Source: Bradyrhizobium sp. 195
GTDB lineage: Bacteria > Pseudomonadota > Alphaproteobacteria > Rhizobiales > Xanthobacteraceae
NCBI RefSeq assembly: GCF_023101665.1
Contig: NZ_CP082161.1
Span: 1,674,001 to 1,738,000 of the forward strand
Length of the DNA stretch: 64,000 nucleotides
Direction of reading: 5' to 3'
A model generated the notes under the pieces. It saw only the letters and a program-made list of their open reading frames with translations, searched no databases and was not told the DNA's origin. The position numbers were made by a program, and so were the translations under genes. Shown piece by piece: positions 3,221-62,716 of this stretch. Position 1 is the first letter of the stretch. Each line of letters begins with the position of its first letter.

Positions 3221-3251
3221 TTCCTACAACGTGACGCTACGTACGAGTCAA
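3221..3251 (-). promoter_or_regulatory. MerR-type promoter repeat, copy A
   Basis: Minus strand: -35 TTGACT (3251-3246), 19-bp spacer containing the core GTAGCGTCA, then -10 TAGGAA (3226-3221). It is one of eight related copies in the window; the copy at 13059-13089 is the nolA promoter. This copy has the best dyad: TGAC on the left arm and GTCA on the right arm. It faces the decayed region to its left. Confidence 0.6.
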
Positions 3252-3870
3252 ATCCCTTCGGCGACTATAGCGCGACAATCTGGCTGGGACGCACTTCCAT
3301 CCTGATTGCCGCGCCGCAAGCTACTCCCTGCCACTTGAGATGGCCTGCAGCAGCAGTGTGCGTGGAGCCAGGCATGGTATGCTGATCCGCGGAGTGGCCC
3401 ACGCCGTGATCGTTGCAGGAATGCGACATTCGTGATGGCTGATACCTTTGGTTTGGTCAGAGTGCTGCGCTTCTCTGGGCGGCATTGCCCCACCCGCCGG
3501 GGGCAACGAGGAAGACGTTCGGTCGCAGCTGAAACGTGGACGTGACTAGCCGTCTCGCGGCGCACTCGGAGTGCCGTTAGGACCTGGACTATTTGCGCGC
3601 CGCGGCGGCCGGCGGGCGGTCGCATTGCAGTGCAAGGGGTACCGTACTCATGCTCTGAGACCGAGCGCTTGAATACACGGTTCTTGCCTTGACGATGCCG
3701 AAGAAGTGGTCCTGCCACCTGTCCCGCGGCACGCCTGCTGACGAGACGAAACTGTTAGGGAAAAGCAGGCTGCCTGTATACCCATCGCTGGGCGATCTCG
3801 AAAGGACCGCCGGCTCTCAAAACCAGGACGATGTCTTCTTATTACCCGATCGAGCGATCTAACCTTCGCC
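3252..3870. other. Decayed region, no gene seen
   Basis: Frames on both strands are short, compositionally biased and overlapping; I find nothing that I can call a gene. Confidence 0.4.
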
Positions 3871-5619
3871 TTATGCAGAATTCCGCCAGGTGCTAGGCGG
3901 AGCCTCGATTTGATTAGACGAGTAAGAGTTGATCGTCTGATCGAGCAAATCGCCAAGAGCGCAGGCGCCATGGGTCGGGTCGGACTTGGCTTCACGTGTC
4001 GTTCCCCGAGCTAGAACAAGTTTGGCGATTTGCGTACGATTGGCGATAGTACGGCGATCTGGCGGTAAAGCTGCGACTGCCTGGTCGAAAATGTCAGCTA
4101 GGATGCGGAGGTCTTCTGGATAGAAGAGGTCACCGTATTGTTTCGCCGGGACTGTTCGCCTGCTGGGTCCGCTGGCGCTCGCCTCGCCTATTGCGCCGAG
4201 GTCAAGCTTCGCCGCGACCAGTTCGCTTGTGAGTTCGTCGAGCAGCTTGACCGCTCGGAGCGCGAATTTGTCCTGGCAGATCAGTTGAGCAACGACCTCC
4301 AATTGTAGAGCAATGCGGTGCTGAAGGTGCTCAATGCGCGACGTGCAAACAATCTCCTTCGGCTTGTCGGTTGTCGGGCCCGGGCACAAAAGCTTGCCAT
4401 GCGTTCCATTTCCGTCAGGCAAATCGGCTGGTCTGCGCGAGAGCCAGTCGCTGTTGCTCAAGGTACAGAGCGCATAGGCTTTCATCGGGAGCAGGAGGAA
4501 GATGTTGATCGGGGTGTGGAGCGAGAAGCCGATAAATCGAAGCTCGCCGGCACGAAGGGCCGCCACGCTGCATCGAATCATGGTCATCGCGACGATGGTC
4601 AGACCGGTCCACCAGGGCACGGTGCCGGTGAGCGCGAGCTGAGCGAGCGCGGCAATCGATGAGATGGCGAGCAGCAGCGGCCCGAGGTTCTGTCCGAGCA
4701 CGTCGAGCGTAAGGTACCGGTCCAGGCCGGGCAACAGGTGCAAACCCAGCAGCGTGTCGCGGTAAGTGCTCCGCGCCCAGCGGAGCTGTTGCCGCAGATA
4801 GGGCAAGAGCCTGTCCGGGACCACCGTGGCGGCGATGGCGTCCGGAACGTACTCGGTTCGAAACCCTGCCTTGAGCATGAGGATCGTCAGATGACGGTCC
4901 TCACCGAAGTCGCTCGGCTTTCCCCGGAAGAACTGCGTCTCGTACTGGTCCAGCAGCAACAGCAGCGCGGAGCGGCGGTACATGGCACACGGCCCGCAGC
5001 AGCACATGACGGCACCAAAGCGCGTCTGCGCCGCGCGCTCCTCGTTGCAAGCCAACCAGTACTCCATGTCGATCAATCGGGTCAGCCAGCTGTCGTTCCG
5101 GTTGCTGGCCGTCAATTGCCCCATGGCCGCGCCGACGGCTGGATCCTGCATCTTGCGTACGAGTTTGCTGACCACGTCGCTGGCGATTTCCGTGTCGGAA
5201 TCGACATTGAGCACGAGATCGCCGAACGACCGGCGTATCGCTGCGATCTGCGCCTTGCGCTTTCCAACGTTGCTTGGCAGCAGAATGACGTTGAACCTCG
5301 GGTCATATGCGTAGCTCCCATGGACCGGGGCCACTGCAGCGACATTTGCAGAGCCGTCATCGACCACATAGACCTGCAATCGCCCTGGGTAGTCCTGGCT
5401 TGCGAGAGACTTCAGGCAGGCCGCCAGCGTGCGCGGGTCCTCGTTGAAGCAGGGCACGATGACATCCACGCTAGGCAGAGCATCGGTGTCGACCGGATCG
5501 TACGGCGGCAGTGAGGCGTCGGTTCGCAGCGCATAAAGCGCCTGCGCGCTCTTATGGACGCTGGAGAGCAACGCGTAGGAGGCAACAGCAACGGTGCTGA
5601 TGGTGGCAAGCAGGCTCAT
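3871..5619 (-). CDS. Chimeric NodC: duplicated chitooligosaccharide synthase fused to a foreign C-terminal domain
   Basis: The first 395 or so residues repeat NodC of the main operon, with all catalytic motifs (VPCFNEDP, VVDDGS, DSDT, GEDRH, QQLRW) and the C-terminal membrane helices. Identity breaks right after the residues SDWLSR (position 4434). The native tail is replaced in frame by about 185 unrelated residues: a helical segment (IEHLQHRIALQLEVVAQLI...LLDELTSELVAAK) and a module YPEDLRILADIFDQA...LPPDRRT that resembles the small protein encoded at 13159-13362. Upstream lies a truncated nodB and, at 6432-6479, a nod box on the same strand, so NodD-dependent transcription is plausible. 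NodC makes the N-acetylglucosamine backbone of Nod factors at the inner membrane. Whether the fusion is active is unknown. Confidence 0.75.
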   Translation of the reverse strand: MSLLATISTVAVASYALLSSVHKSAQALYALRTDASLPPYDPVDTDALPSVDVIVPCFNEDPRTLAACLKSLASQDYPGRLQVYVVDDGSANVAAVAPVHGSYAYDPRFNVILLPSNVGKRKAQIAAIRRSFGDLVLNVDSDTEIASDVVSKLVRKMQDPAVGAAMGQLTASNRNDSWLTRLIDMEYWLACNEERAAQTRFGAVMCCCGPCAMYRRSALLLLLDQYETQFFRGKPSDFGEDRHLTILMLKAGFRTEYVPDAIAATVVPDRLLPYLRQQLRWARSTYRDTLLGLHLLPGLDRYLTLDVLGQNLGPLLLAISSIAALAQLALTGTVPWWTGLTIVAMTMIRCSVAALRAGELRFIGFSLHTPINIFLLLPMKAYALCTLSNSDWLSRRPADLPDGNGTHGKLLCPGPTTDKPKEIVCTSRIEHLQHRIALQLEVVAQLICQDKFALRAVKLLDELTSELVAAKLDLGAIGEASASGPSRRTVPAKQYGDLFYPEDLRILADIFDQAVAALPPDRRTIANRTQIAKLVLARGTTREAKSDPTHGACALGDLLDQTINSYSSNQIEAPPSTWRNSA

Positions 5620-5952
5620 GGGAATTGATCTATTCAGTGAGTTTGAGGAAGCGACCGGATTGCGAATCCACGGTCATGCAGTGCTGGAATGAGCTGGGCG
5701 AGCGCCGTCACAGTCTGGTCGCGCCGACCAGAGTGAGGGCAGCGTTCCAACTCGTCGGGAGGGCACCCGTCGTGCAGGAGCACGATGGCCCCCGGCCGGA
5801 CCGAGGCCAGCACCGCGGCAACAATCGCCTCGGCGCCAGGACGAGACCAGTCTTGCGGGTCGACTGACCAGTGCAGGGCTGCCAGTTCGGCCTTCGCCGA
5901 CGCAGCGTGGGCCTCCTTGGTCCAAGTCCCATACGGCGCACGCATGTGCCGC
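4434..5952 (-). repeat. Inverted duplication of nodB 3' half and nodC (copy 2)
   Basis: Reading the minus strand from 5952 to 4434 reproduces 17894-19412 of the main operon (1,519 bp; the two coordinates always sum to 23846). The nodC part shows no difference that I could find. A few substitutions sit near the nodB end (for example GGGACTTGG here against GGGATATGG). Homology stops abruptly at both ends. Confidence 0.9.
5634..5952 (-). pseudogene. nodB: Truncated nodB copy (C-terminal half)
   Basis: C-terminal 103 residues of NodB, from MRAPYG to the normal end LPQTH. The N-terminal half with the deacetylase motifs TFDDGP and HTMTH is missing, so it cannot be an active chitooligosaccharide deacetylase. 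It precedes the chimeric nodC with the same 14-base spacing as in the functional operon. One substitution changes the residue after APYG from I to T. Confidence 0.85.
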
Positions 5953-6431
5953 GGCCACGAGCCCGCATCGAAAACACTCCAGTTCCTTGTTGACTCGCAA
6001 AGGGCTCACCGCGCGCCACCGGACAGATGCGCGTCAAGCGCGGCCATCCGGGATCAGCCTGCCAGAGCGCTGCACCCAGCGACGCTAGATCGCCCTTGTC
6101 GCTATTGGCTTGGGCTGCGCCGTTCTCGCTAAGGCCGGCCAGAGATCCGAGGGCGAGCTGCCCATGCTGCCTCATGGCTGATGTTCGGGCCAGATTGATG
6201 CATCCAAGCAGCTCCCGCGCGCCAGTGGCTCGCTGATGCAATAGAACACGTTGCACTGCGCCCTAGTCCGATAGCGCGACCAAGACGGGCCTCGATCTGG
6301 GCGCAAGAGCTGATCACGTGCTGGCGCTTGCACGTTATCCGCCAATTGCATTGAAAATGGCGAATACGTCATCACGCGCCTTTTCCTCAATCATCCTTGA
6401 TAGCCGGCGGTTAGCTATGCGGATTTGGAGA
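5953..6431. other. Leader between the second nod box and the nodB fragment
   Basis: About 480 bases of minus-strand leader. Several frames are open on the minus strand (for example 6172-6390) but none resembles NodY or NodA, so the parts that precede nodB in the main operon were not duplicated here. Confidence 0.4.
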
Positions 6432-6479
6432 ATATTGGTAAAATCTATTGTTTTGATGCGAGGTATCCATGCTGCGGAT
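6432..6479 (-). promoter_or_regulatory. nod box upstream of the nodB'-nodC duplication
   Basis: Minus strand, 48 bp. It starts ATCCGCAGC, has GGATA in the middle, then ATCAAAACAAT and ends AGATTTTACCAAT. This matches the 47-49-bp rhizobial nod box (ATCCA-N-GATG-N-ATCNAAACAATCRATTTTACCAAT) at nearly every conserved position and aligns base for base in length with the nod box at 16079-16126. It faces the nodB fragment and chimeric nodC, 0.5 and 0.8 kb downstream. It should be bound by NodD in the presence of flavonoids. Confidence 0.85.
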
Positions 6480-7063
6480 GGGTCAAGAGGGATTCATCAA
6501 CATTGAGTGCGTGAGCCGATCCTCTTGATTCAATTGATCAGGCGCATGCGGAAGAATGGCTCACCATGCGACCATCCATTCGGTGAAGGTCCTAGCCAGG
6601 CATCGAAGCCATCTCGGGAACGCGAATCATGATGCTTGAGCTGGATCAACTCAAGCGCTGCTTCCCCAGAGCAGAGTCCAGCCTACGCCGCCGCCTAATG
6701 ACGAGACCTGGCCGGTCCTTTCGATGATCAAGTTACAGAGCTGAGGGGCACTCGCCCATTGGCTCGACGCAGCGGACCGCTAAAGGTGGCCAGAGAAGCC
6801 TGGTTCGGGATGCTCGAGAAAAACAGAGCCTGCAGCGTTTCGGCAGGTGCCCACCCAAGCCTGCAGGCCATCAGGATAGATTAGATTGATCAACTAGCGA
6901 GGTGCTGTCGCTCCATTCCCATCAGCTTCATAGCTGCTCAGGAGCTCAATCGAAGCCCCCCGGCTAACATCAACGCTGCACAGCAAAGTGTTCGGGCAAG
7001 CGCTCGCTGGAGCGGGGCATGGATCAATGCATTTTGGGATGAGCGCTGCAGATACCGACTTCG
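6480..7063. other. No gene seen
   Basis: Only very short frames on both strands. No RNA gene or IS signature recognised. Confidence 0.4.
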
Positions 7064-7366: not shown

Positions 7367-7435
7367 TGGCCATCTCCTTCTCCAGCCAGATTCTGGCGAC
7401 CATCCCAGCGAAATCAGACCTGTTCCCTTTGACAC

Positions 7436-8603: not shown

Positions 8604-8646
8604 TTATCGCCTGGTCAAGGACGAACTTATTGCTGTTGGCTCACCG

Positions 8647-9675
8647 TCAGTGCTCTGCCGCTATGAGATCGGAGTGAATCGCAGTTGCTGTGTTGAGGCA
8701 GGCATCCAGTGACAGAGATCCAAAGGCGAGCTGGCAAAGGAGATAGTTGGCGCCTGCCTCTTCCACGTGATCGAGAAGAGTCTGGCGCACCGAAGCGCGC
8801 GTTCCGACAACGCACAGTTCACTCTCAATTGCGGCATCCAAGGTTAGGGGCAGGTTGGATGGAGGCGGGATGTCATTGAGCTCGTACAGGAACTTAAAGC
8901 TCTTGAGCCATGTTTCGTAGGCTGGCGCGGCGAGGGCGCGGGCGGCTGCTTCAGAGCTTGCAATTACGACCATGCGGAGTAATGCGAGAAATGGTGCTGA
9001 ACCGTTGGCGTCATGCTTGGCGTTTCGATGAGCGCGATAGCGATCTGTTACCTTGCGAACGGCAGAAGAGGGCCCCATGCACGCCAGATTAGCGCCATTC
9101 GCCGCCGCCCAATGCGCGGACTCTGGCCGATTTGTAGCAATCCATGTCGGGGGACAAGGACGCTGGTGAGGTGAAAGCGTCAAAGGAACGTCGCTCAGCG
9201 CAAAATGTTGCCCTTCGTACGAGAGCGGGCCGCCATTCATCGCGTTAACGAAGATTTGGGAAGCTTCCTCGTAACGGCTTGAGGCAACATCGGCTCCAAC
9301 CCCAAAATAACTCAGTTCGATCGGTAGGGAGCCGCGACCAAGACCGACCTCGACCCTGCCGCTGCTCAGGTGATCCAACATGCAGATCTCCTCGAATGCC
9401 CGCAACGGGTGGTAGAGGTTGAGCAGCATGACCAATGGACAAACGCGAAGTCGCCGTGTGCGTTGTATGACGCTTGACAGAAACACGTTCGGCGATGGAC
9501 CGCGTCCATGGGGGGTGCAATGATGCTCCGCCAGATGATAGGCATAGAAACCGAGCCGGTCGTAGGCCTCCGCCAGCGCGAGGCGGTCCGCGTATTGCCG
9601 GGCGATATCGGGGCCGTCCTCGTCAAGATGATCAAAGATGCCGCAGGTCAGGTTTGAGGGAAGAACGTTTCTCAC
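8647..9675 (-). CDS. Luciferase-like flavin-dependent monooxygenase
   Basis: 342 residues of the bacterial luciferase-like (LLM) TIM-barrel family that uses reduced FMN and oxygen. Visible family features: GIFDHLDE near the start, EAYDRLGFYAYHLAEHH, the segment LSSGRVEVGLGRGSLPIE, and RYEEASQIFVNAM. It starts with GTG behind a good ribosome-binding site (TAGGAG, 9 bases away). It lies downstream of, and in the same direction as, the hisC-like gene with a 215-base gap, so the two may be co-transcribed and act on one pathway. The substrate cannot be read from sequence. Confidence 0.85.
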   Translation of the reverse strand: MRNVLPSNLTCGIFDHLDEDGPDIARQYADRLALAEAYDRLGFYAYHLAEHHCTPHGRGPSPNVFLSSVIQRTRRLRVCPLVMLLNLYHPLRAFEEICMLDHLSSGRVEVGLGRGSLPIELSYFGVGADVASSRYEEASQIFVNAMNGGPLSYEGQHFALSDVPLTLSPHQRPCPPTWIATNRPESAHWAAANGANLACMGPSSAVRKVTDRYRAHRNAKHDANGSAPFLALLRMVVIASSEAAARALAAPAYETWLKSFKFLYELNDIPPPSNLPLTLDAAIESELCVVGTRASVRQTLLDHVEEAGANYLLCQLAFGSLSLDACLNTATAIHSDLIAAEH

Positions 9676-9890: not shown

Positions 9891-10988
9891 CTAGCCACCG
9901 CATCCCACTTTCTTAAGAATGCTGCCGACAGCCGCAAGAAACGCATCCATCTGGCGCGTTGTACCGATGCTAACCCGAATGCACTCTTGCAGGCCGGCAT
10001 CCGGAAAGAAGGCAACGAGAACGCTCTGGTCTTGCAACGCCGCCTGCCACCATCTGCCACCCTGGCCTACCGGCACACGGGCGAGGAGGAAGTTCGCGTG
10101 GGAAGGCGTTACGGAGAACCCAAGTTCCGAGAGGGCGGCCGCTACGCGCTGACGCTCAAGCCTGACGTGGCGATGGTTCTCCTCGTAGGCGTCGCGATGC
10201 GCAAGGACGCTCATGCCAACGGCATGAGCGACCACATTCATGTTGAAAACATTCTGGATGTTGCGAAGCCGCCCAATCAGCTCGGGATGGCCGAAACCGA
10301 AGCCGACGCGAATGCCAGCGGCGGAATAACTCTTGGAAAACGTGCGCAGGACCAGAAGATTCGAATGGCGCTCAACGAGGCGTAGGCCGTCCTCAGGTGC
10401 GAAATCGACATAAGCTTCGTCCAATACGATCAATCGGTCAGATCGTATAATGAGGCGCTCGATCTCAGCGAGCGGAACAAAGGTTCCGGTCGGATTGTTC
10501 GGATTGGCCAGCAGAATGAACTTGGCATCTTTAGCCCGACCGAAAAGCAGCTCGTCCATCGGCAAGCAGTCGGGTTCAGACCAGGGAATTTCAATGAACC
10601 GGGCCCCTTGCAACAGGGCAAGCTTGCGATTGAATGAGAAGCCGGGCGACATCATTGCGACGCCGTCGCCCGGGGCAAGAAAGGCTCTGTAAATGAGACT
10701 GAGGAGTTCAGACGATCCATTGCCAGCCATCACGCGATCAGTGGCAATCCCATAGGCCGCTGCGGCCGCTTGTCTCAAGCTGACATTATCGTCTTCTGGA
10801 TAGCGGTATTGCACCTCAAGAGCTGCAATTGCGCTTCGCATCACGATGGCTGGCAAAGGAAATGGGTTCTCATTCGTGTTCAGTTTCACGCAAGCATTAT
10901 CCAGGGTGGGTCGCCCGGACGGCAAAGCATCCAATTCGCGAGCCACCGGCGAGAGCGAGGAAAGCATAGTTTGCAGTTTTGCATCCAA
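9891..10988 (-). CDS. hisC: Histidinol-phosphate aminotransferase family protein (HisC-like)
   Basis: 365 residues, fold-type I PLP aminotransferase. Family motifs: KLNTNENPFP near residue 37, AGNGSSELL, ANPNNPTG, DEAYVDF, and the PLP lysine in TFSKSYSAAGIRVGF. The start is TTG, chosen because AGGGAGAA sits 8 bases upstream and the family N-terminus follows directly. A symbiosis-island location beside a flavin monooxygenase suggests a second copy, perhaps with a changed substrate (a related amino acid or phosphonate), rather than the housekeeping histidine enzyme. That is inference. Confidence 0.85.
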   Translation of the reverse strand: MDAKLQTMLSSLSPVARELDALPSGRPTLDNACVKLNTNENPFPLPAIVMRSAIAALEVQYRYPEDDNVSLRQAAAAAYGIATDRVMAGNGSSELLSLIYRAFLAPGDGVAMMSPGFSFNRKLALLQGARFIEIPWSEPDCLPMDELLFGRAKDAKFILLANPNNPTGTFVPLAEIERLIIRSDRLIVLDEAYVDFAPEDGLRLVERHSNLLVLRTFSKSYSAAGIRVGFGFGHPELIGRLRNIQNVFNMNVVAHAVGMSVLAHRDAYEENHRHVRLERQRVAAALSELGFSVTPSHANFLLARVPVGQGGRWWQAALQDQSVLVAFFPDAGLQECIRVSIGTTRQMDAFLAAVGSILKKVGCGG

Positions 10989-12104: not shown

Positions 12105-12135
12105 AAGGTACAATGTGACGCTACGTGCGAATCAA
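12105..12135 (-). promoter_or_regulatory. MerR-type promoter repeat, copy B
   Basis: Minus strand: -35 TTGATT (12135-12130), 19-bp spacer with core GTAGCGTCA, -10 TACCTT (12110-12105). It lies just upstream (on the far side) of the nolA 3' end and points away from it toward 11.6 kb. Confidence 0.6.
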
Positions 12136-12323
12136 GTACTTCGAAGGGTGCTCGTCGAGGTTGATTGCCAAAATCCACAGAGCGAAGAACCCCAAAGAGT
12201 GCCGACAACGCAGATTCGCAGGCGAATTGCTACGGGCCAACGATCCTCAGTCAGACAAGAATCAGCATCACTTCATTGGGTCTAGAGACATTGCAGTAAC
12301 CGCGTCGCGGGCAACCGCGTGCG

Positions 12324-13043
12324 TCAACTCTTTCCCAGCTGGTCCTCCAGCGCGGCGAGGGCGAGATCCAGGTATCGCATGAGGCTCGCATCCCAGCCGG
12401 CGAGATTGTGTGGTTCGGTCAATCGCGTCAGCACCTTAAGTATCATCGAGACAGTCGAGTCAACTCCTGCGATCTCAGTCAGCAGCGAACGGGCCTGACG
12501 CGCGACCGCATTTGCCCGCTCACTGCATGGAGGCTCGCCCCGATCCATGCAGCTACGTAGCTCGTCCCGAATCTTCCGCCACCGATCTTCGCGGCTAGCG
12601 TTAGAGGCGCACGTGCAGATGGCCGAGGGGGTACGCTCCTCAATCCGCGACATTGCATCTAACGTGGCCGGCAGCTCGTCGACACTGACTTCTGTCTCAC
12701 CTTGCGTCGTCATATTGCGCAATCGATCCCGTAATAGTGTCGCCCGCGCGACTTGAACTTCAATTCGCTCCAGATGGTTGCGCAATAGGTCCGTGAGAGA
12801 TGTTCGCCCCTCGATGGCTTTGCGGATCTCAGGAAGCGAGAAGCCGAGCTCACGTAGCGCGCGAATCTGAGAGACGCGTTGTAGGCTTTCACGATCGTAC
12901 ATGCGGTGACCGCCATCGGTACGTTCCGAGACCGTCAACAACCCGGTATGTTCGTAGTGATGCAGAGTGCGTACCGTTACGCCGGTCGCCTCTGCAAGTT
13001 CTCCAATGCGCCATCGGCGCCGTCGTGGTGTGGCGTTTGTCAT
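12324..13043 (-). CDS. nolA: NolA, MerR-family nodulation regulator
   Basis: 239 residues. The N-terminal MerR winged helix-turn-helix is clear (WRIGELAEATGVTVRTLHHYE, GLL, GGHRMYD, QIRALRELGFSLPEIRKAIEG). It is followed by a coiled-coil dimerisation helix (LLRNHLERIEVQVARATLLRDRL) and a Cys-containing effector part (ICTCASN, PPCSERANAV). This matches Bradyrhizobium NolA, the genotype-specific nodulation regulator that acts through nodD2. ATG at 13043 follows GAGGACC at a good distance; a TTG three codons earlier is less likely. The promoter at 13059-13089 is MerR-type, suggesting autoregulation. Known NolA is also translated from internal starts; Met codons exist downstream. Note that its classical target nodD2 is broken here. 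Confidence 0.95.
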   Translation of the reverse strand: MTNATPRRRRWRIGELAEATGVTVRTLHHYEHTGLLTVSERTDGGHRMYDRESLQRVSQIRALRELGFSLPEIRKAIEGRTSLTDLLRNHLERIEVQVARATLLRDRLRNMTTQGETEVSVDELPATLDAMSRIEERTPSAICTCASNASREDRWRKIRDELRSCMDRGEPPCSERANAVARQARSLLTEIAGVDSTVSMILKVLTRLTEPHNLAGWDASLMRYLDLALAALEDQLGKS

Positions 13044-13058
13044 GGTCCTCAATTTGCA

Positions 13059-13089
13059 AGCCTACAACCTGACGTCACGTGAGAATCAA
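13059..13089 (-). promoter_or_regulatory. nolA promoter, MerR-type repeat copy C
   Basis: Minus strand: -35 TTGATT (13089-13084), 19-bp spacer with CACGTGACGTCAGG, -10 TAGGCT (13064-13059). The expected transcript start is about 10 bases before the nolA ATG. A 19-bp spacer is too long for unassisted RNA polymerase and is the hallmark of promoters twisted open by MerR-family activators. Confidence 0.7.
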
Positions 13090-13158
13090 GTTATTTCAAT
13101 GATCTAGATGATGGTCTCTTGCTGCGAACCCCCGGAAGGACTGAGCGCATGCTGTTGA

Positions 13159-13864: not shown

Positions 13865-14440
13865 GACGTGCCATAGCTCCTGCAGCAATAACTCGCATAT
13901 CCAGACGTGAGCCGGATCAGTGTTGCGCAGCACAGTCCAGCTGTCGCGGGTAATGGCTTGCTCGTCCAGAAGCTCACTCACTTTCATCCTCGAACAGTAT
14001 CGCTTTGGTGTGCGAGCGCTGGACATAGATGCTTTGGGTAAGATAGGCAAATCATGTTACCGCACCGAAGTAGCTCTTCGGGGACAGCGGTGAGGGGCCG
14101 CAACTCGGGGCTAACGGCGGCGGCATCCCGCGCGCCACTACACTTTCGAAAAGAACACGACTGTCGCGAGATCCGAAAGGATGACCCTGCACCCACGATC
14201 CGATGTGGCTGGATTGACCCGCCCGAAACGATCAAAAGCTGTAGGTGGAGCAGGGCTTGGCGAATGGGAGCGGCGAGCCCTTCCGTGCGCCGGACATTGG
14301 CACAGTTGCCGTCCTCTCATCATAAACACTCATCCCCCAAGCACGCGCGCAGCGGGACAATGCCGCGAGCTCACGGCGGGTGGATCCAGGTTGATCCTGC
14401 GGCCAGCGAGTTTGCGGTTGCGCTCCGTCATGCGGGATTG
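13865..14440 (-). pseudogene. nodD2: Decayed nodD2-like LysR regulator
   Basis: Pieces of a NodD protein in different minus-strand frames and in the right order. Near 14.40 kb: MTERNRKLAGRRINL...PAVSS (the LysR HTH). Near 14.32-14.14 kb: MMRGRQL, then PATSDRGCRVILSDLATVVFF. Near 14.06 kb: LLRCGNMICLSYPKHL. Near 13.90 kb: LRNTDPAHVWICELLLQE (C-terminus). Frameshifts separate the pieces, and the span is too short for a full 314-codon gene, so there is at least one internal deletion. In other bradyrhizobia an intact nodD2 sits at this place and represses nod genes under NolA control. Confidence 0.8.
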
Positions 14441-14788: not shown

Positions 14789-14819
14789 GGTCTACAACCT
14801 GACGCGGTGTGCGATTCAA
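14789..14819 (-). promoter_or_regulatory. MerR-type promoter repeat, copy D
   Basis: Minus strand: -35 TTGAAT (14819-14814), 19-bp spacer ending GCGTCAGGTTG, -10 TAGACC (14794-14789). It points toward the nodD2 remnant, about 350 bases upstream of its HTH part. This is a plausible former NolA-controlled promoter of nodD2. Confidence 0.6.
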
Positions 14820-15122
14820 GGGATTTTAGTGCCGAGGCCGGATCTCGTTCACCTGACTGGCCGGATCATTTCGCGAGCTCTAAGCTCAGCTCATATAGAA
14901 CAGTGCGATGCAGCCCCGTCGGATCAGCGGAAAGTCATTGCGGAGCGTCGCCGAACGAGCTGTATGACGCGCAAGATCGTCACGCCAGCGCGAGATCAAT
15001 AGCGCCGCCGACCCGATCAAACTACGCTCAAGCGCGCCAATCCGAACACCAGCAAGGACCGGAGCTTCGAGCCTGGCGTAGATCTGGTTAATGAAGAGTA
15101 GGTCGCAAACGGCCGAACAATC

Positions 15123-16067
15123 CTAGAACGGGCCGTGACATTGGTTGGTCTCGGACGGAGAGACCATCATGGATGCCTCTTGCAAGAACATGTTGCGCAT
15201 CCAAATGCTTGCAGGATCAGTATTATGAATGGCCGGCCACTGGACGGCCTCGGTGAATGTGAGAAGTCGCAGCGGAGGTTCGATGACCCGCAGGGGCATC
15301 GTGTTTGCGAAATGGCTGACCAATCTTGAGGGCATGCTCGCTATACGGTTGGTGCCCAATAACATAGGCGGAATCATACCAAAACCCTGCACAGCGACCT
15401 CGGTGCGTATCTTGAAACCATGCTCGAGCAAGAGCCATTCGTGGAAGGAGGGCCTCAGGGAGCGCCCGAACTGGGCTTCCACGTGCCCGATCGACATGTA
15501 CTTCTCGAACGTAAGTCGCGGCGCCAGCTGCTTGTTCATCGGGCAGCCCACGCAAACGAAAGTGTCGTCGAACAGTGCCGCCTTGGGATGCGCACTCGAC
15601 ATGAACATCTCCGGATACATGAGAAAATCGACTTCACCGCGCCGGAGAAGTTCATCGGGTTCCTCTCCGGGCGGCAGCAACTCGAAATTGATTGTCGGAG
15701 CTTCCCGCGCGACGCGGTCCACGATTCTTCGAAGAAACACGACAGTCATGAAGTCGGACAGGATGATCCTGAATCGCCGGTTCGATTGAGACGGAGTGAA
15801 GCCGTCCGGAGAAATGATGGAGAGCTGAATGTGAGCGAGAGCCTCGCGAATCGGGACTGCGAGCGCTTGAGCCCGCGGCGTTGGGACAAGCTTCCGGCCC
15901 CTCATCGTGAATAGCTCATCGCGAAAGTAAGTGCGAAGCCGCGCGACGGCAGCGCTCATGGCAGGTTGACTGAGGTTGATGCTTCTTGCTGCCGCAGTGA
16001 GATTGCCTTGCGTCACCAGGGCGTCGAACGCGACTAGGAGATTCAGATCGAGGCCCTTGAAACGCAT
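15123..16067 (-). CDS. nodD1: NodD1, LysR-type flavonoid-responsive activator
   Basis: 314 residues. The start [18 protein letters not shown] is the conserved NodD N-terminus; longer upstream frames would overlap the nod box and are not used. The HTH is [24 protein letters not shown] (residues about 23-46). The effector domain carries [13 protein letters not shown] and [18 protein letters not shown], as in family members. It is divergent from nodY-nodABC, with the nod box only 12 bases from its start codon. NodD1 binds that box and activates the operon with isoflavones, and may repress itself from the same site. Intact. Confidence 0.95.
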
Positions 16068-34960: not shown

Positions 34961-36787
34961 TTATTCGACGGTTACCGATTTCGCGAGATTTCGGGGTTGG
35001 TCGACGTCCGTGCCCATCAGGATGGCCGTGTGGTAGGCCAGAAGCTGCACCGGAATCGCATAGACAATCGACGTAAATGTCGTACCCATCTCCGGCAGCA
35101 CAATCGTCGCGAGTGAATCCATGGATACCTCTGCGGCTCCCCGAGCGTCCGTTATCAAGATAATCTTGCCGCCGCGTGCGGCGACCTCCTGCATGTTCGA
35201 GATGGTCTTTTCGAACACCCGGTCGCAGGGAGCAATGACGATTACGGGAACGCTCTCGTCGATCAAGGCTATCGGGCCGTGCTTGAGCTCTCCGGCCGCA
35301 TAGCCCTCGGCGTGAATATAGGAGATCTCCTTCAGCTTCAGTGCCCCCTCCAGGGCCAGTGGAAACGACGTGCCGCGACCAAGATATAGCACGTCACGCG
35401 ATTTGGCGATGTCGCGTGCGAGCTTCTCGATCTGCGGCTCGCTGGCGAGCGCCGCTGTAACTAGCCGCGGAATTTCGATCAGCGCTCGCACGAGATCGAC
35501 CTCGTCGCTCTCCGGCAATTCACCGCGCGCCTTGCCAGCAGCGACGGCAAGCGCCGCCAGGACGACCAGCTGGCATGTGAACGCCTTGGTCGAGGCAACG
35601 CCGATTTCAGGTCCGGCGAGTGTCTGCAACACTGTCCCGCTTTCGCGCGCAATGGTCGAACTCAGTACGTTCACGATCGAGAGGGTATGCAGGCCTTGCG
35701 ATTTGGCATAGCGGAGCGCGGCCAGCGTATCGGCCGTCTCGCCGGACTGCGAGATGAAGATAGCAAGATCTCCCTTGCGCATCGGCGCCTCACGATACCG
35801 AAATTCGGAGGCGACATCGAGCTCGACCGGAATACGAGCCAGCCGCTCGAACCAGTATTTGCCGATATGGCCGGCGTAGCCTGCCGTACCGCAAGCCGTG
35901 ATCGAGATATGTCCGATCTCGTTGAAGTCGAACGGAAGCTCCTGCGGCAGTGCCACGCTCTCGGTAGCGATATCGACGTAATGCGCCAGCGTCTGCCCGA
36001 TCACCTCTGGCTGTTCGTGGATTTCCTTCGCCATGAAGTGGCGGTAGTTTGCTTTCTCGACGAGAAACGACGACGCGCCAGATCTCATCACCTCCCGGCG
36101 GACAACTGTGCCTTGTGCGTCGTAGACCACGCTGAAGTTGCGGTTGAGCACAGCCCAATCGCCGTCCTCAAGGTAGGTGATCAAGCCGGTAAGGGGCGCG
36201 AGCGCGATAGCATCCGATCCGAGATACATTTCGCCTTCGCCATGCCCGATCGCGAGTGGTGAGCCCTTGCGCGCACCGATCATGAGGTCGTGTTGACCCT
36301 TGAACAGGATTGCAAGCGCAAACGCGCCGACTAGCCGCGGTAGCGACGCTTTTACTGCCTCCTGCGGCGAGCAGCCATCTTTCAGATAAAAGTCGATGAG
36401 ATGCGTCACCACCTCGGTGTCTGTTTCAGAGGCGAAGCAGGCGCCATGCTGTTTTAGCTCCGCTCGCAGCTCGCGGAAATTCTCGATTATGCCGTTATGG
36501 ACGACTGCAACATTGTCCGTTGCATGCGGATGAGCATTGTGCTCCGTCGGCTTGCCATGAGTAGCCCAGCGCGTGTGCCCAATCCCGACATGGCCGGAGA
36601 GCGGATGGCAGCGAACGCGTGTCTCAAGGTTCCTCAGCTTGCCCTCGGCGCGTCGAAGCTCGATATGGTTTCCTTTGAGCGTTCCGATGCCCGCGGAGTC
36701 ATAGCCGCGATATTCCAGTCGCTTCAGTGAATCGATGAGACGATCCGCGACCGGACCGCGCCCCAAGATGCCGACAATTCCGCACAT
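34961..36787 (-). CDS. nodM: NodM, glucosamine-6-phosphate synthase
   Basis: 608 residues, full-length GlmS type. N-terminal glutaminase with the nucleophile Cys2 (MCGIVGILG), HTRWATHG and HNGIIEN; C-terminal two SIS domains (SQSGETADT, GRGTSFPLALEGALKLKEISYIHAEGY) and the closing DQPRNLAKSVTVE. It makes glucosamine-6-phosphate from fructose-6-phosphate and glutamine, the precursor of UDP-GlcNAc for NodC. Because it sits in the nodulation region it is likely the symbiotic copy (nodM) beside a housekeeping glmS. No nod box is visible upstream; the start follows GAGGT. Confidence 0.93.
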   Translation of the reverse strand: MCGIVGILGRGPVADRLIDSLKRLEYRGYDSAGIGTLKGNHIELRRAEGKLRNLETRVRCHPLSGHVGIGHTRWATHGKPTEHNAHPHATDNVAVVHNGIIENFRELRAELKQHGACFASETDTEVVTHLIDFYLKDGCSPQEAVKASLPRLVGAFALAILFKGQHDLMIGARKGSPLAIGHGEGEMYLGSDAIALAPLTGLITYLEDGDWAVLNRNFSVVYDAQGTVVRREVMRSGASSFLVEKANYRHFMAKEIHEQPEVIGQTLAHYVDIATESVALPQELPFDFNEIGHISITACGTAGYAGHIGKYWFERLARIPVELDVASEFRYREAPMRKGDLAIFISQSGETADTLAALRYAKSQGLHTLSIVNVLSSTIARESGTVLQTLAGPEIGVASTKAFTCQLVVLAALAVAAGKARGELPESDEVDLVRALIEIPRLVTAALASEPQIEKLARDIAKSRDVLYLGRGTSFPLALEGALKLKEISYIHAEGYAAGELKHGPIALIDESVPVIVIAPCDRVFEKTISNMQEVAARGGKIILITDARGAAEVSMDSLATIVLPEMGTTFTSIVYAIPVQLLAYHTAILMGTDVDQPRNLAKSVTVE

Positions 36788-40747: not shown

Positions 40748-41914
40748 ATGACCGCTCCGGGATAACGCATCAATCTCGCGGCGGCTGGTTGGGCACTCAG
40801 TGCCCGCAAACGTATTTCGAAGCCGCCAAGGCTGGATTGGTCCTTCTTACATGTGGGCGATCTTGTCTTCATACGGGCCGGCGATCTGCGTGGACAGGAC
40901 AGAAACAGCGTTCTTCGGACTGAGCGCGATCCTCAGCCGCTTTGGCAGAAGACCTCTCATCGCAAGCGACCGGCCTGCTCCGCTTTAGCACAGGAATTCT
41001 GAAGCGACCGAACATTGGTGCTCCCTAGGGGGGCACTTTACAATCTGACGCTACGTACGATTCAATCCCCCTGCGGGCTTATCGCGTGAATATGTCGAAC
41101 TCGTATTCGTTTGCCAGGTGCCAGCCGCAAGGCGAGGAGGGCGGGAGGCGCTTCACCAAGGCAGTTGGCTTTCGGTATTCGTCGTCTGCGGAACGCGCAG
41201 CTCGGGTCCGCTCGAGTGTGCGCGCATAGCTACGCCCAGCTGTGAGGCTGCTCGTCGCTGGCCAAGTGACCACGCGAATCAGTCAAGCTTACTTGAATGT
41301 GTGGATAGGAGCTGCCTCGGCGCCGGAATCAATCGTCCATGGCTGAATGCTAACTCGAGTCTGTGCGAATTGGCTTTGTCTATCCAGCCGAGCTCTCCCG
41401 CTGTCACCATCATAATGGGGCTGCTTTCCGGGAGTTGTCGGTGCCGCGGCGGCTGAGCAGAATAGGAAACGAGATCAATCGAGAGCGCGTTAATCTGGTC
41501 AATGAGCCAAACTCCCGTCAGGGCACCCAACAGTGACTTCGCCGTTCTAGGTAACTTTGAACTATCGACCTCGAAAGGCGCCGTCAGGTGCAGGCCACGC
41601 CGGGTCAACGATCATCGCGGGTTCGATACTTGTGGGGAGATCTGCCGGGCGTCGTCCGTTGGAAGGCCGCGCCTAAGCGGTACTCAGCGCCCTGGTCCCG
41701 TTGAGAGCATCGCGACTTCGGTCCAGATTGGCGCGTTTGCTACAATCGTTGTTGGTATCAAAGAGTTGCTATGGCGACTTCAACTCCAGGTCGGCCGGGG
41801 GAGAGACGGCGGTTTTGCAGGCAATCAAATGGCTGTTGGAACGAGCGGCGCAGTTGGCCATGCGCTCTGATGGGCGGGCGGGGCCTTGTAGCGGCGCCGA
41901 TCGGCGTCCTCCAT
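40748..41914. other. Decayed region with MerR-type promoter copy E
   Basis: No gene recognised apart from the promoter-like repeat at 41035-41065. Confidence 0.35.
41035..41065 (-). promoter_or_regulatory. MerR-type promoter repeat, copy E
   Basis: Minus strand: -35 TTGAAT (41065-41060), 19-bp spacer with CGTACGTAGCGTCAG, -10 TAAAGT (41040-41035). Identical in the spacer core to copy F. Confidence 0.65.
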
Positions 41915-42181
41915 TCATCTTGAGGCGCGAGCGATTGTTAGGCCGGCATTCTCCAGCACATCCAAAATCCTGTCAGCCACCGCCCGCGGATCGCACTGGT
42001 CCTCTTTGCTCACGTTACAGGCCAAGGTAGCTGCGATGATCGCGTGCGCTGTTTTGCGCTGGAGGCAATCGTACTCGGCATACTCACCGCAAGTATTGCA
42101 GTTGATCACTGGTCGGCCGCTCCAGGGATCGTGCATTGCGATCTCGCACCAGTTATCTGCGTGACATTTCGGACAGAGCAT
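41915..42181 (-). CDS. Small zinc-ribbon protein
   Basis: 88 residues with two CxxC knuckles: MLCPKCHADNWCE at the start and CNTCGEYAEYDCLQ near residue 28. A helical tail follows (AVADRILDVLENAGLTIA). AAGGAAA lies before the ATG. This looks like an intact small zinc-binding protein of unknown role in an otherwise decayed region. Confidence 0.6.
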   Translation of the reverse strand: MLCPKCHADNWCEIAMHDPWSGRPVINCNTCGEYAEYDCLQRKTAHAIIAATLACNVSKEDQCDPRAVADRILDVLENAGLTIARASR

Positions 42182-42880: not shown

Positions 42881-42911
42881 ACCCTACAATCTGACGCTAC
42901 GTACGATTCAA
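42881..42911 (-). promoter_or_regulatory. MerR-type promoter repeat, copy F
   Basis: Minus strand: -35 TTGAAT (42911-42906), 19-bp spacer with CGTACGTAGCGTCAG, -10 TAGGGT (42886-42881). It faces the reverse transcriptase fragment 20 bases further. Confidence 0.65.
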
Positions 42912-43103
42912 GCCCTAATGTCGAGAGTCGCGCATTTCGCGCCCCTCGCCGCGCTTGCTGCGAGCGGCTTGTCGCATCTCAGACATTAAAAGAGCGGTCG
43001 GCAGATAACGGCAAATGAGGTGCTTTTGCGAAAGCCAACCTACGGGATCTTACGTAGGGCATGTGTCGCATTTTCTTGATCTAAAAATTGCATCGTCTTC
43101 CGC

Positions 43104-49951: not shown

Positions 49952-51688
49952 TCAGGCGGCCTGCTGAGCGGCGGGCTTGTCGGCTTGGCGCAGGAGCTTC
50001 CATTCCCAGGGCAGCAGTTCGTGCAGACGCGACGCGGGAAGATCGGCGATACGGGCGAGGACGTCGGCGAGCCAGGCCTTGGGATCGACGTCGTTGAGGC
50101 GACAGGTCGTGATCATCGTCAGCATGATGGCGGCACGGTCGGCGCCACGCTGGCTGCCGGCGAAGGTCCAGTTGCGCCTTCCCAATGCGATGCCCCTCAA
50201 TGCGCGCTCAGCGCAATTGTTGGTCAAGCAGATCCTGCCATCGTCGAGGAAGCGGGCGAAGTCGTCCCAGCGCCTGAGCATGTAGTTCATAGGCTTCAGG
50301 ACCTCGGAGGAGCGCGAGAGGGTTTCGCGCTCACGCAGCAACCAGGCGTGCATGTCCTCGAGAAGCGGCTTGCTCTTTTCCTGGCGCACGGCGCGCCGCT
50401 CGTCGGCGCCGCGGCCGTTGATGGCGCGCTCGATCTCGAACAACGCATCGAGGCGTCTGACCGCCTCCAGCGCGATCGGAGAGACCGGTTTGCCCTTCTT
50501 ACCTTCCCGAGCATTTTTCTCGATGTCAGCCAGCTCGAAGAAGCCCCGCCGCGCATGGGCCAGGCAAAACGCCGGTGTGATCGGCATCGCTTTCTTTTGC
50601 GGGTCGAACAGCGGCTCGAAGCCGTTGTAGCAATCGGCTTGCAGGATACCGGCGAAGGCGGCCAGATGCTTCTGGGGGTGCTCGCCTCGTCGGTCGCTCG
50701 AGGCGTAATAGACCGCCGCCGGCGGCGCAGGCCCGGCAAAGGGCCGGTCATCCCGCACATAAGTCCAGATCCGCCCGGTCGTGCACTTGCCCTTCGCCAG
50801 GATACGGATGGTGGTGTCGTCGCCATGCAGGCGCTCGGCAGCGAGTACATGGCGTTCGATCAAGTGGAAGAGCGGCATGACGGCAAAGGTCCCGTGGCCG
50901 ACCTGGTGGGCCAGTGTCGACAACGGCAGGTCGATCCCCTCGGCCTTCAAGCGCGCGCTCTGGCGGTTGAGCGGGATATGCATGCCGAACTTGTCGAACA
51001 GGATCGTCGCCAGCAATTGTGGGCCGATGAAGCCGCGCGGCGTGGCATGGAACGGCGCGGGCGGCTGGCTGATCTTCTCGCAATCGCGGCAGGTGAACTT
51101 CTCGCGTACCGTCTCGATCAGCTTGAAGCGGCGCGGGATCTCCTCCAGCGTCTTGGTCACATCCTCACCGATCTTCGCCAGCCGCGATCCACCGCAGCAG
51201 GCGCAGGTCGTTGGAGCCTCAATGACGACGCGCTCGCGTTCGATGTCGTCCGGCCATGGCTTGCGCACCGGCCGCTTGCGCGTGAAGGCGCGTACGCTCT
51301 GCGCCTTTGCCGCCGCGGCCTGCGCGGCGAGCTCATCCTCGCTCGCCGTGGTGACGAGTTCTTCAAGTTCCAATTCCAACTGCTGGATCAGCCGCGCCGT
51401 GCGCTCGGAACGCGGCCCGTACAGTTCGCGTTTGAGCTTCTCGATCCGCAGCTCGAGATGCGCGATCAGCGCCTCATTGTCCGACAGCTTCGCCCGCGCG
51501 TTCGCCGCTTCGGCTTGCCAATTGATGGCTTCGGCCTGTATCCGGCTGACCTTCGCCGCGGCCGCATCGCGTTCGACCTCGACCCTCAGCCGCGCGTCGC
51601 GTTCAGCCCGCAGCGCCTCACGTTCGATCAACAGCGCCGCCTGGGCGCTGGCGAGATCCGAAGGAAGGTCATCCGGCTTCAAACTCAT
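49952..51688 (-). CDS. tnpC: IS66 TnpC transposase
   Basis: 578 residues, DDE transposase. N-terminal coiled coil (LERELEA-like helices with LELRIEKLKRELYGPRSER), a zinc-finger CACCGG, the core with HGDDTTIRIL and ADCYNGFEP, and the C-terminal TNNCAERALRGIALGRRNW and DRAAIMLTMI. Uninterrupted. 44 bases after tnpB. Confidence 0.95.
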   Translation of the reverse strand: MSLKPDDLPSDLASAQAALLIEREALRAERDARLRVEVERDAAAAKVSRIQAEAINWQAEAANARAKLSDNEALIAHLELRIEKLKRELYGPRSERTARLIQQLELELEELVTTASEDELAAQAAAAKAQSVRAFTRKRPVRKPWPDDIERERVVIEAPTTCACCGGSRLAKIGEDVTKTLEEIPRRFKLIETVREKFTCRDCEKISQPPAPFHATPRGFIGPQLLATILFDKFGMHIPLNRQSARLKAEGIDLPLSTLAHQVGHGTFAVMPLFHLIERHVLAAERLHGDDTTIRILAKGKCTTGRIWTYVRDDRPFAGPAPPAAVYYASSDRRGEHPQKHLAAFAGILQADCYNGFEPLFDPQKKAMPITPAFCLAHARRGFFELADIEKNAREGKKGKPVSPIALEAVRRLDALFEIERAINGRGADERRAVRQEKSKPLLEDMHAWLLRERETLSRSSEVLKPMNYMLRRWDDFARFLDDGRICLTNNCAERALRGIALGRRNWTFAGSQRGADRAAIMLTMITTCRLNDVDPKAWLADVLARIADLPASRLHELLPWEWKLLRQADKPAAQQAA

Positions 51689-60285: not shown

Positions 60286-60675
60286 TCACGCGTTCTTTCC
60301 ACCACGGTGCTCGCGAAGCGCTTCATCGACGCAGGCGATCAACTCCAGACCGGCAAAGGGTTTGGCAAAAAAGCCGGTTACGCCGGCGCTCAACGCGCGG
60401 GCTCGCGTGCGATCATCTGCGAAGGCAGTCATCAGGATGAATGGCGCAGCGTGGCCCTGGGCCCGCATCTGTTCCAAAAGTTCAAAGCCGCTCATCATGG
60501 GCATCTGCACGTCTGCAATGACACAGGACGTATCCTTCAATTGAGACGACCGCAAGAATTCCTCAGCCGATGCAAACGTACGAACGATGTGGCCCTGCGA
60601 TTTCAGAAGGTTGTTCAGTGCGGCACGAATCGAAGGATCGTCGTCGACAACGGAAACAGTTGAATACCTAGACAA
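60286..60675 (-). CDS. Receiver-only response regulator (CheY-like)
   Basis: 129 residues, a single receiver domain: VSVVDDDPSIR (acidic pocket), CVIADVQMPMMSGFELL (phosphoacceptor Asp), PFILMTAFADD (conserved Thr) and FFAKPF (Lys) all intact. No output domain. It lies 91 bases downstream of the NodW/NwsB-type gene in the same direction, so it may act as a phosphate sink or partner of the same kinase. It is the closest relative within the window of the degenerate NodY/K receiver. Confidence 0.85.
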   Translation of the reverse strand: MSRYSTVSVVDDDPSIRAALNNLLKSQGHIVRTFASAEEFLRSSQLKDTSCVIADVQMPMMSGFELLEQMRAQGHAAPFILMTAFADDRTRARALSAGVTGFFAKPFAGLELIACVDEALREHRGGKNA

Positions 60676-60766
60676 GACGACCCGTTCTTAGTTGGGCGAA
60701 GGCGCTGGCCGACGCATGACGGCCAGCAGAAGGATGCGCGTGTACGACGAAATTGTAAAATCATAC

Positions 60767-61450
60767 CTAGGTTTGTACCCTGAAACGGTCGGTCCCAATT
60801 CCCAGCCTCTCAGCCATCCTGATCAAATCGGCCAGCGATCGAGCTCCCATCTTCTTCATCACGTGACCGCGATAGATTTTGACTGTAATCTCGGCGAGCC
60901 CGAGTTCCGCGGCTACCTGTTTGTTCAATAGGCCGGCGGCGACTAGTTTCAATACATCCTGCTCTCGTGGACTTAGGGCCTCAAACAAGGACTGCAGCCT
61001 CCTGACCACCTTGTCTACACCTCGTCTCTTCCGATCCTGTTCGATAGCTGCGACTACTCCATCGAGTAGTTCCTGATCGCGAAACGGCTTGCTGAGAAAA
61101 TCGATTGCTCCACTCTTCATGGCTTTGACAGTCATCGGAATATCGCCATGAGCGGTGATGAAAATAATAGGAATGTGAATCTTCAGTTTGGCTAACTCAC
61201 TCTGGAGCTCAAGGCCGCTCAATCCCGGCAGCCTGATGTCAAGCACAAGGCAGCTAGGAACATCAGGGAGCTCGCTCTGGAGCATTTCCCGGGCCGATCC
61301 GTAAGCAACGACATCCAGACCGATCGAGCGAAATAGGTTGACCAGCGATTCGCGCATTGAGAGGTCATCGTCGACGAGGAAGACGCTCGGCCTCACCTCC
61401 GGCCCTACGACATTTGCGGCTTCCTTCCGCGGTTCAGAGCGCTTGGTCAC
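60767..61450 (-). CDS. FixJ-family response regulator, NodW/NwsB type
   Basis: 227 residues. Receiver with VFLVDDDLSMRESL, LVLDIRLPGLSGLELQ, FITAHGDIPMTVKAMKSGAIDFLSKPF, and C-terminal LuxR/FixJ HTH LSPREQDVLKLVAAGLLNKQVAAELGLAEITVKIYRGHVMKKMG. The length and N-terminus (EAANVVGPEVRPSVFLVDDD) fit Bradyrhizobium NodW and NwsB, which control nod genes with host flavonoids or population density; I cannot tell which. The usual sensor kinase (NodV or NwsA) does not precede it in the window. Confidence 0.85.
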   Translation of the reverse strand: MTKRSEPRKEAANVVGPEVRPSVFLVDDDLSMRESLVNLFRSIGLDVVAYGSAREMLQSELPDVPSCLVLDIRLPGLSGLELQSELAKLKIHIPIIFITAHGDIPMTVKAMKSGAIDFLSKPFRDQELLDGVVAAIEQDRKRRGVDKVVRRLQSLFEALSPREQDVLKLVAAGLLNKQVAAELGLAEITVKIYRGHVMKKMGARSLADLIRMAERLGIGTDRFRVQT

Positions 61451-62075
61451 GATAAGAGCCTCACTTGTACGATTTACAGTAGAATCGCCGCCTCACTACG
61501 ACCTTTGATTGATCGCGTAGCCTTTCGAGGACTTTCGCGCAGTGCAAAGTTTGAGATTTTCCAGGTATGTGACGGGTCAGCCATTCGCGCCAGCGTGACG
61601 CATTACAGGAAAGTCTAGCAAAAACCGCCCGACCGGTCGAGAACTGCCTTTCGGGTCTCGTCCGCCGTCGCGTCGGATCGGCCCCGCGGCATCGATCAAA
61701 CGATCAGCAGCCGATCGAGAGGCACCGAATCCAGAACTTGAGGCGCTCGCTTTAGCATTGCGGCGCGTGTCGGCTGGCCTTCGCGAATGAGCCTGCAGCG
61801 GACGACCCATTATGCGGCTGAAGGATCAGAATGCCCGGCGCCTTGGTAGTTGAACGCGGGGCCGCGAACTGAGCGAATTGGCGCGATTGTGCCTGTGCAT
61901 GCGCCCATCCCGCCGGCGTTGAGATCGGCAAGCGGCGTAGACTATCGCACCCGTACTAAGGAAAATAGATATCAGAACGAGTAGCAGCGACATCAGCACA
62001 TGAACTCTTCTTTTCCGTCCTCAGAGCGCCTTTGAGTTGCTCTTTGCGAGGGTGGGGAAAGCACCTTGCACCGAC
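61451..62075. other. No gene seen
   Basis: A kinase gene would be expected upstream of the NodW/NwsB-type gene but none is visible. Confidence 0.4.
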
Positions 62076-62106
62076 TTCGTACAACCTGACGCAAGGTGCG
62101 ATTCAA
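62076..62106 (-). promoter_or_regulatory. MerR-type promoter repeat, copy G
   Basis: Minus strand: -35 TTGAAT (62106-62101), 19-bp spacer ending GCGTCAGGTTG, -10 TACGAA (62081-62076). The -35 half CGCACCTT is also partly repeated just downstream of the -10. Confidence 0.55.
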
Positions 62107-62517
62107 GTCCTTTCCGTCATGTTTGTAGGAAAGATGCTCGAACTCGAGCTGCTGCAGGGGCGCTCACGTGCGTTCGTGTCGTTGCTTCCTTCACGAGGCT
62201 CGCACCCCAAGGCGGCGTAATCTGAATGGAGAGGCGGGACACACTCCATTCGGTGTCCAGGTGCGGACCAGTTCGCCAAAAGGCAGTTGCATTTGCTCTC
62301 CATCAGCCAAACAACCGCTGATCCAGCGAAAGAATCATTCTCCTACCAGAATTGGCGGAAATCATAGGTCCGTGCCGGCACCTTGAAGGTTCGCTCTTTG
62401 ACCTACATAGGAACGACAAAACGCGCCCTGAGCGATCAACCTGAAGCTGTTGTCAGACCTGCCAGTAGCTCATTGATCCGCTAAGGGCCTACGGTCCAGG
62501 GGGGCGTTACAGATGGC

Positions 62518-62553
62518 CCGACGCATTCCGTTAAGCAGAAAGTGCGTCGGGTT
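62518..62553. repeat. Hairpin related to the one at 57039
   Basis: CCCGACGCA and TGCGTCGGG face each other across a loop of about 15 bases. The same arm sequence is found in the hairpin at 57039-57076. Confidence 0.45.
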
Positions 62554-62685
62554 CGCCCCACATCGCCAGTACATCCGTGGTGACGCTGCCTCCAATGAAG
62601 AAACCAGCGCGGCAAAACTGAGGCTCGCTCAGCAAGGCAGAGTAGGTAGTGACTCCCTGCTACTTCCGCACCGGCCAGGAAGGGC

Positions 62686-62716
62686 TTGAATCGTTGGTAG
62701 CGTCAGGTTGTACGAT
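62686..62716 (+). promoter_or_regulatory. MerR-type promoter repeat, copy H (plus strand)
   Basis: -35 TTGAAT (62686-62691), 19-bp spacer with GGTAGCGTCAGGTTG, -10 TACGAT (62711-62716), the best -10 of the set. It is the only copy on the plus strand and faces a gene-less stretch. Confidence 0.6.

Follow-up and report, generated by a model that had tools for sequence, protein, structure and literature searches.

What makes use of a promoter-like element that occurs eight times in one stretch of a rhizobial symbiosis island, with one copy just before a regulatory gene? The stretch (the window) is the 64,000 nucleotides (nt) from 1,674,001 to 1,738,000 of contig C1 (8.3 Mb) of Bradyrhizobium sp. 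195, whose genome (G000) is 9.14 Mb. The element, which we call the NolA box, has -35 and -10 hexamers that are separated by 19 base pairs (bp), and the regulatory gene is nolA, whose role as a genotype-specific regulator of nodulation has been known since 1991. We conclude that the box is very probably the operator and promoter of NolA, that is, a promoter of the MerR type that NolA activates and that defines an island-wide regulon. We observed directly the element itself, how it is spaced, positioned, and conserved, and the dyad within it; we infer that NolA binds the box, activates transcription from it, and answers to a signal.

A previous reading of the window (the sequence-only reading) had proposed the eight sites, and each of them is present at its claimed place and strand. 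As had also been claimed, all eight have the -35 sequence TTGA[A/C/T]T, a spacer of exactly 19 bp, and an intact TTGTA at the junction with the -10. The proposed common core is looser than was stated: TAGCGTCA is exact at only five of the eight sites, and the cores of the nolA copy (GTGACGTCA), the 14789 copy (ACCGCGTCA), and the 62076 copy (CTTGCGTCA) deviate from it. The -10 has its final T at five of the eight sites. The sites are listed here with their scores from a 38-bp matrix, which was made from 166 distinct sites from G000, other genomes, and named Bradyrhizobium contigs; these sites were picked by having at most three mismatches to a 20-base core. (On the minus strand, the first number is the low end of the site, which is the end of the -10, and the TTG of the -35 begins at that number plus 30.)

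3221..3258, minus strand: NolA-box promoter, 48.9 bits; an open reading frame (ORF) of 104 amino acids (aa), 2106-2420, begins 804 nt downstream.
12105..12142, minus strand: NolA-box promoter, 48.9 bits; about 1.12 kb before hisC-like and luciferase-like monooxygenase genes.
13059..13096, minus strand: NolA-box promoter of nolA, 44.0 bits; 19 nt before the ATG.
14789..14826, minus strand: NolA-box promoter, 37.4 bits; faces the nodD2 relic.
41035..41072, minus strand: NolA-box promoter, 53.6 bits; ORFs of 48 aa, at +23 nt, and 78 aa, at +291 nt, the latter of family C5 and with a third-position excess of 1.69.
42881..42918, minus strand: NolA-box promoter, 58.2 bits; 88-aa cysteine-rich ORF (41915-42181) 703 nt downstream, with a weak coding signal (1.22).
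62076..62113, minus strand: NolA-box promoter, 54.3 bits; forms a divergent pair with the 62686 copy and has a 57-aa hydrophobic ORF at +80 nt.
62679..62716, plus strand: NolA-box promoter (the 62686 copy), 48.8 bits; no clear gene identified downstream.

The eight sites score 37.4-58.2 bits. Elsewhere in the window the best score is 15.5 bits, and in the reversed window no score exceeds 0 bits. With a control matrix of 151 sites, from which the loci of this genome had been removed, the eight sites score 36.8-58.3 bits versus 14.7 bits for the next best. Across the whole genome, the 20-base core (at most three mismatches) has 16 matches, versus 0 for the same pattern written backwards. All 16 copies lie between 1,144,323 and 1,736,705 of contig C1, and they score 28.0-58.2 bits. 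A weak ninth match in the window (position 1989, plus strand, 15.5 bits) is possibly a decayed copy.

The consensus of the 166 sites is aaagggC-TTGAAT-CGYACGTAGCGTCASRTTG-TAsGnT, in which TTGAAT is the -35, the next 19 bp are the spacer, and TAsGnT is the -10. Conservation exceeds 90% for each of the TTG of the -35, the ACG and the CGT in the spacer, the TTG that precedes the -10, and the initial TA of the -10, and the last T of the -10 is at 80%. Fifteen of the 19 spacer positions are at least 90% conserved (12 inside the searched pattern and three outside it), and the G directly before the -10 is at 97%. The hexamers are rich in information at a constant spacing of 19 bp, and this holds for TTGTA and the -10, which, like the block before the -35, lie outside the 20-base core that was used for searching. 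Two other conserved features are the aaagggC block, at -7 to -1 from the TTG in the consensus, and an A-then-T-rich tract 22-31 bp upstream of the -35; a MerR dimer explains neither of them. Beyond this tract, the flanks carry next to no information. We also considered whether the element could be a nod box, and rejected this identity: the ATC-N9-GAT palindrome by which the available part of PMC5596368 defines the nod box is not in the consensus.

In a promoter of the MerR type, the hexamers lie 19-20 bp apart, the spacer holds a dyad at a fixed distance from the -35, and the operator adjoins the regulator's gene. The first of these is seen at all eight window sites and in the consensus. As for the second, the best dyad centre among those tested lies 7 bp beyond the -35, at position 13. 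This dyad is imperfect, with a mean complementarity of 0.51 versus a mean over centres of 0.245 (SD 0.10). The 21-bp sites of the MerR family have the same 7-bp spacing of the dyad past the -35 (PMC5045206, available in part).

The third is seen at nolA itself. Among the 30 best matches to nolA, all 30 loci have a box 14-19 nt before the gene, which bears out the claim that one copy is the nolA promoter, and 28 of the 30 have a second box behind the gene, 820-1382 nt past its start. Six further or repeated nolA loci include five with a box and one without (in G289, discussed below). The genes concerned are arranged in the window as follows.

12324..13043, minus strand: nolA, with a MerR DNA-binding domain and the helix TVRTLHHYE.
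13877..14431, minus strand: nodD2 relic, broken nodD-like fragments with 33-48% identity to NodD1.
15126..16067, minus strand: nodD1, the reference gene, with no box within 400 bp upstream.

The sequence-only reading had another copy facing the nodD2 relic, and this generalizes to intact genes. We compared 21 nodD-nolA regions (the window and 20 that we fetched). In all 16 regions with two intact nodD genes, a box lies 335-370 nt before nodD2, and in three more (the window, G042, and G112) it lies between nodD1 and a broken or relic nodD2. Two regions with a single nodD (G009 and G017) have no box at the corresponding place. None of the 20 nodD1-side starts evaluated has a box within 400 bp (this count leaves out G017, whose single nodD is on the other strand). 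When the 16 nodD2 upstream regions are aligned, the box is their most conserved 27-bp stretch (0.935 versus a median of 0.597). There is little conservation in this alignment from the box to the gene, and no conserved small ORF was found in the nodD2 leader.

The protein itself also points to NolA. G000 has five MerR_1 genes, of which only nolA is within the island, in keeping with the remark that it was the only MerR gene seen. Pfam finds only MerR domains in NolA (E <= 0.001). Its best match in the PDB is TipA, with which it shares the helix TVRTLHHY, and its third is Mta, whose helix is SIRTLHHY. We looked at the promoters of seven helix-matching MerR genes from other genera (two in genomes and five on records of the plasmid collection). 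All seven have a TTGAC-type -35, a 19-bp spacer, and the ACGnnnCGT register, which is exact at five and has ACC for ACG at two (these two were read by eye); an example is TTGACC-CTCACGCGGCGTGAGGGTG. The register is absent at 12 MerR genes of other classes and at three Streptomyces matches that lack the helix. The claimed 19-bp MerR-type architecture thus extends beyond the window, both to the 166-site consensus and to these genes. The operators of mta from Bacillus subtilis and tipA from Streptomyces lividans are taken to have the same register and form no part of the evidence.

Several lineages have a short NolA, of 152 aa in G017, G043, and G293 or of 138 aa in G036 and G182 (loci L233, L234, L236, L237, and L238). 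These proteins keep the DNA-binding part, and their genes keep their own box upstream. At two mismatches or fewer, there are 3-18 copies of the motif (median 7) in the 117 genomes where nolA is matched over its full length, 8-14 copies in the 12 genomes whose nolA match ends near residue 130-174, one copy in each of seven G036-type genomes, and three in G182. (A looser pattern gives seven matches in G036, of which six are on its second contig.) The number of motifs therefore does not follow NolA length in any simple way. A truncated nolA, that of CCBAU53363, is reported to matter for symbiosis (PMC9927474, available in part).

The box is found with the symbiosis island. Among 100 genomes (this one included), the motif is present at two mismatches or fewer in 33, all of them within the 60 Bradyrhizobium, and in none of the 40 from other genera. 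Among 265 Bradyrhizobium genomes, nodA was found in 139, nolA in 137, and the pattern in 143. All 139 genomes with nodA have the pattern, and 137 of these have nolA. Of the four other genomes with the pattern, three (G118, G145, and G216) reach no matrix score as high as 8 bits, and their matches were treated as false; the fourth is G152, discussed below. Matches to the backwards control occurred in two of the 100 genomes (G015 and G080) and three of the 265 (G015, G133, and G205); these are four matches, single or double, at two mismatches. At least 120 stretches from named genomes have the motif, and among the 80 matches listed, all are from Bradyrhizobium, as are 35 of the 37 plasmid records with a match. 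Plasmid p187_1 yielded no annotated features. Overall, the distribution shows that the motif is tied to the nodulation island, and on its own it does not single out nolA among the contents of that island.

Published data on a nolA deletion in B. guangxiense CCBAU53363 provide an independent test. Eleven genes changed, 10 of them downward, and four are named in the available part of the report (PMC9927474): X268_RS37710, nopP, virK, and RS35990. On the symbiosis plasmid of this strain (p53363; 979,173 bp), a looser pattern gives six sites with scores of 18.0-57.7 bits, while the next best in the five stretches that we scanned (about 156 kb) has 4.3 bits. One of these boxes (25.9 bits) is 0.3 kb before a hisC-like gene that is followed by X268_RS37710, which places one of the four named genes behind a box. 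The window carries the same pair behind its 12105 box.

9891..10988, minus strand: HisC-like aminotransferase gene (Aminotran_1_2), the nearest long gene behind the 12105 box to have a family match.
8647..9675, minus strand: luciferase-like (LLM) flavin monooxygenase, the 64% identical counterpart of X268_RS37710.

Several observations weigh against NolA as the user of the box. First, the co-occurrence is confounded, because the motif goes with one and the same island as both nolA and nodA, and a few genomes break the association with nolA. G152 has five strong boxes (42-58 bits; L200, L205, L208, L210, and L211), and neither nodA nor nolA was found in it, with the genome rated as 100% complete. 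G037 and G196 each have nodA and two boxes, and nolA was not found in either. All three of these genomes have an OmpR-type regulator gene with a box about 1 kb upstream of it. In the other direction, G289 (L235) has a divergent, intact nolA (64% identity) whose 2 kb of upstream sequence contain no box. (There are five pattern matches in the G289 genome.) Second, the C-terminal ligand-binding domain of TipA, TipAS, has no match in NolA (Pfam, E <= 0.001). Third, nodD2, hisC, and other genes lie 335-1100 nt from their boxes, which is long for a promoter. Fourth, three of the four genes named from the mutant (nopP, virK, and RS35990) are not explained by boxes: nopP was not located, the 35 kb around virK contain no box above 2 bits, and RS35990, judging by its number, should be adjacent to virK. 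For X268_RS37710, the available part of PMC9927474 gives a change and not its direction. The same part of that paper reports that GST-NolA did not shift the nopP promoter, that there was no regulation between nolA and nodD1, and that NolA had no effect on nodC or ttsI.

Boxes that persist without nolA in G152, G037, and G196 would fit an element whose user is some other factor: a response regulator, a dedicated sigma factor, or a MerR protein with its gene elsewhere than in the island. In that case, nolA would travel along with the element as one of the targets of that factor. The aaagggC block and the upstream A/T tract, which a MerR dimer alone leaves unexplained, would fit this as well. We nevertheless consider another factor to be improbable: the register and the dyad match the promoters of helix-matching MerR genes, the island's sole MerR_1 gene is nolA, and a gene that changed in the nolA mutant sits behind a box. 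It is much less probable still that these are ordinary constitutive sigma-70 promoters whose spacer is conserved for other reasons. They do have recognizable -35 and -10 hexamers, but a 19-bp spacer is unfavourable to unaided sigma-70, and the conservation of 15 of the 19 spacer positions includes three that the search did not select for. Finally, the box is almost certainly not the conserved end of a mobile repeat, which the sequence-only reading had named as an outcome that would overturn it: there are many copies in a region with insertion sequences (such as the IS66 transposase at 49952-51688, minus strand), but information is at background beyond about -9 and +40 of the 166 sites, the positions at nolA and nodD2 are kept between species, and we rejected this origin on comparing the 400-bp flanks of the 16 G000 copies, which are unalike except for the common stretch of the divergent 62076/62686 pair.

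With NolA as the most probable user of the box, the mechanism would be that of other MerR-family activators, by analogy with which we describe it. A NolA dimer would sit on the half-sites ACG and CGT within the over-long 19-bp spacer and twist the DNA, which would let RNA polymerase with sigma-70 use TTGAAT and TAsGnT together. NolA would then activate its own gene, nodD2, the adjacent hisC-like/LLM pair, and, in G000, 13 further promoters spread over the symbiosis island.

To describe what lies behind the boxes, we named the families of downstream genes with Pfam and NCBIfam. Boxes precede genes for an aminotransferase with a flavin monooxygenase, radical-SAM enzymes, an enzyme like anthranilate phosphoribosyltransferase, an acyl-CoA ligase, and a carboxylase, and also genes for small secreted or membrane proteins, nodD2, and two response regulators (one of them beside type III secretion genes). 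The third-position excess, used as a test for coding, is 2.9 for the hisC-like genes, 2.8 for trpD-like, 2.5 for SPASM radical-SAM, and 1.8 for a small secreted protein; it is weaker (1.5-1.7) for short ORFs of 78, 59, and 104 aa. (Carboxylase, AMP-ligase, GMC, and response-regulator clusters were excluded from this test.) For ORF clusters C1, C7, C8, C13, C23, and C34 the coding signal is slight or absent, and we do not count them as genes; a hemN-like cluster also fails the test (1.14), though one of its members matches HemN strongly. Several copies in the window had been described as facing gene-less DNA; most of them face short or distant ORFs, and the 62686 copy faces no clear gene. At gathering scores, the window has no match to an Rfam family.

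Elsewhere in G000 (contig C1, 1,289,600-1,299,300; L261), there are three boxes at 1.292-1.299 Mb, with genes for an AMP-ligase (acyl-CoA ligase), a trpD-like enzyme, and a carboxylase behind them; the ORFs of the ligase and of the carboxylase seem to be divided between frames. The island also holds a glmS-type gene (34961-36787, minus strand). The regulators behind boxes include the following.

60767..61450, minus strand: FixJ/LuxR-type response regulator gene, 629 nt behind the 62076 box.
L018, L019, L023, L025, L033, L036, L039, L069, L072, L073, L086, L116, L150, L152, L153, L164, and L211: the 17 sequence-distinct sites with a box upstream of an OmpR-type regulator gene, at distances of 285-1113 nt.

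The first of these is presumably NodW/NwsB-like. Because only short ORFs lie between it and the 62076 box, there is no sensor kinase gene directly upstream of it. The OmpR-type regulator is possibly TtsI, a name suggested by its 77% identity to the regulator encoded close to the genes of the type III secretion system on p53363. That p53363 gene has no box in the stretch scanned. Because the distances are 285-1113 nt, the ttsI-like targets are weak evidence of direct control.

The enzymes behind the boxes raise the idea that what NolA governs is a pathway dispersed over the whole island and not a simple loop that represses nod genes, and that these enzymes might make or process the small-molecule signal of NolA, which would give a self-amplifying symbiotic circuit. 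We think that this extension is rather unlikely to be correct. No NolA operator was found in the open-licence papers that we searched. With a defined box, the question of the NolA operator can be tested directly, and the box provides a list of candidate targets, several of which have no known role in symbiosis.

How does the box compare with known systems? The mer promoter of the metal-sensing MerR has half-sites that differ from those of the NolA box, and it shares the 19-bp spacer with a symmetrical sequence within it. The G just before the -10, which is 97% conserved in the NolA box, is reported to be important in mer (PMC11049809, available in part). In the literature on nodulation, NolA is described as an activator of nodD2, and no NolA site was found in the 250 bp that were analysed (PMC5596368, available in part). 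The regulator and the target are the same here, and a concrete site is now proposed, at 335-370 nt, which is outside those 250 bp. The closest likeness is to promoters of the TipA/Mta type, which have the same TTGA -35, the same 19-bp spacer, and ACGnnnCGT at spacer positions 4-6 and 10-12, and which likewise precede the gene of their own regulator, with the helix TVRTLHHY or one close to it. In contrast to these, the NolA box has many dispersed copies and the extra aaagggC and TTGTA blocks, while NolA has no TipAS match and, in several lineages, is short and lacks the C-terminal part. The type of operator is thus already known, and its use across an island is the unusual part. This suggests that an operator that we otherwise find before single TipA/Mta-like genes became a switch across the symbiosis island.

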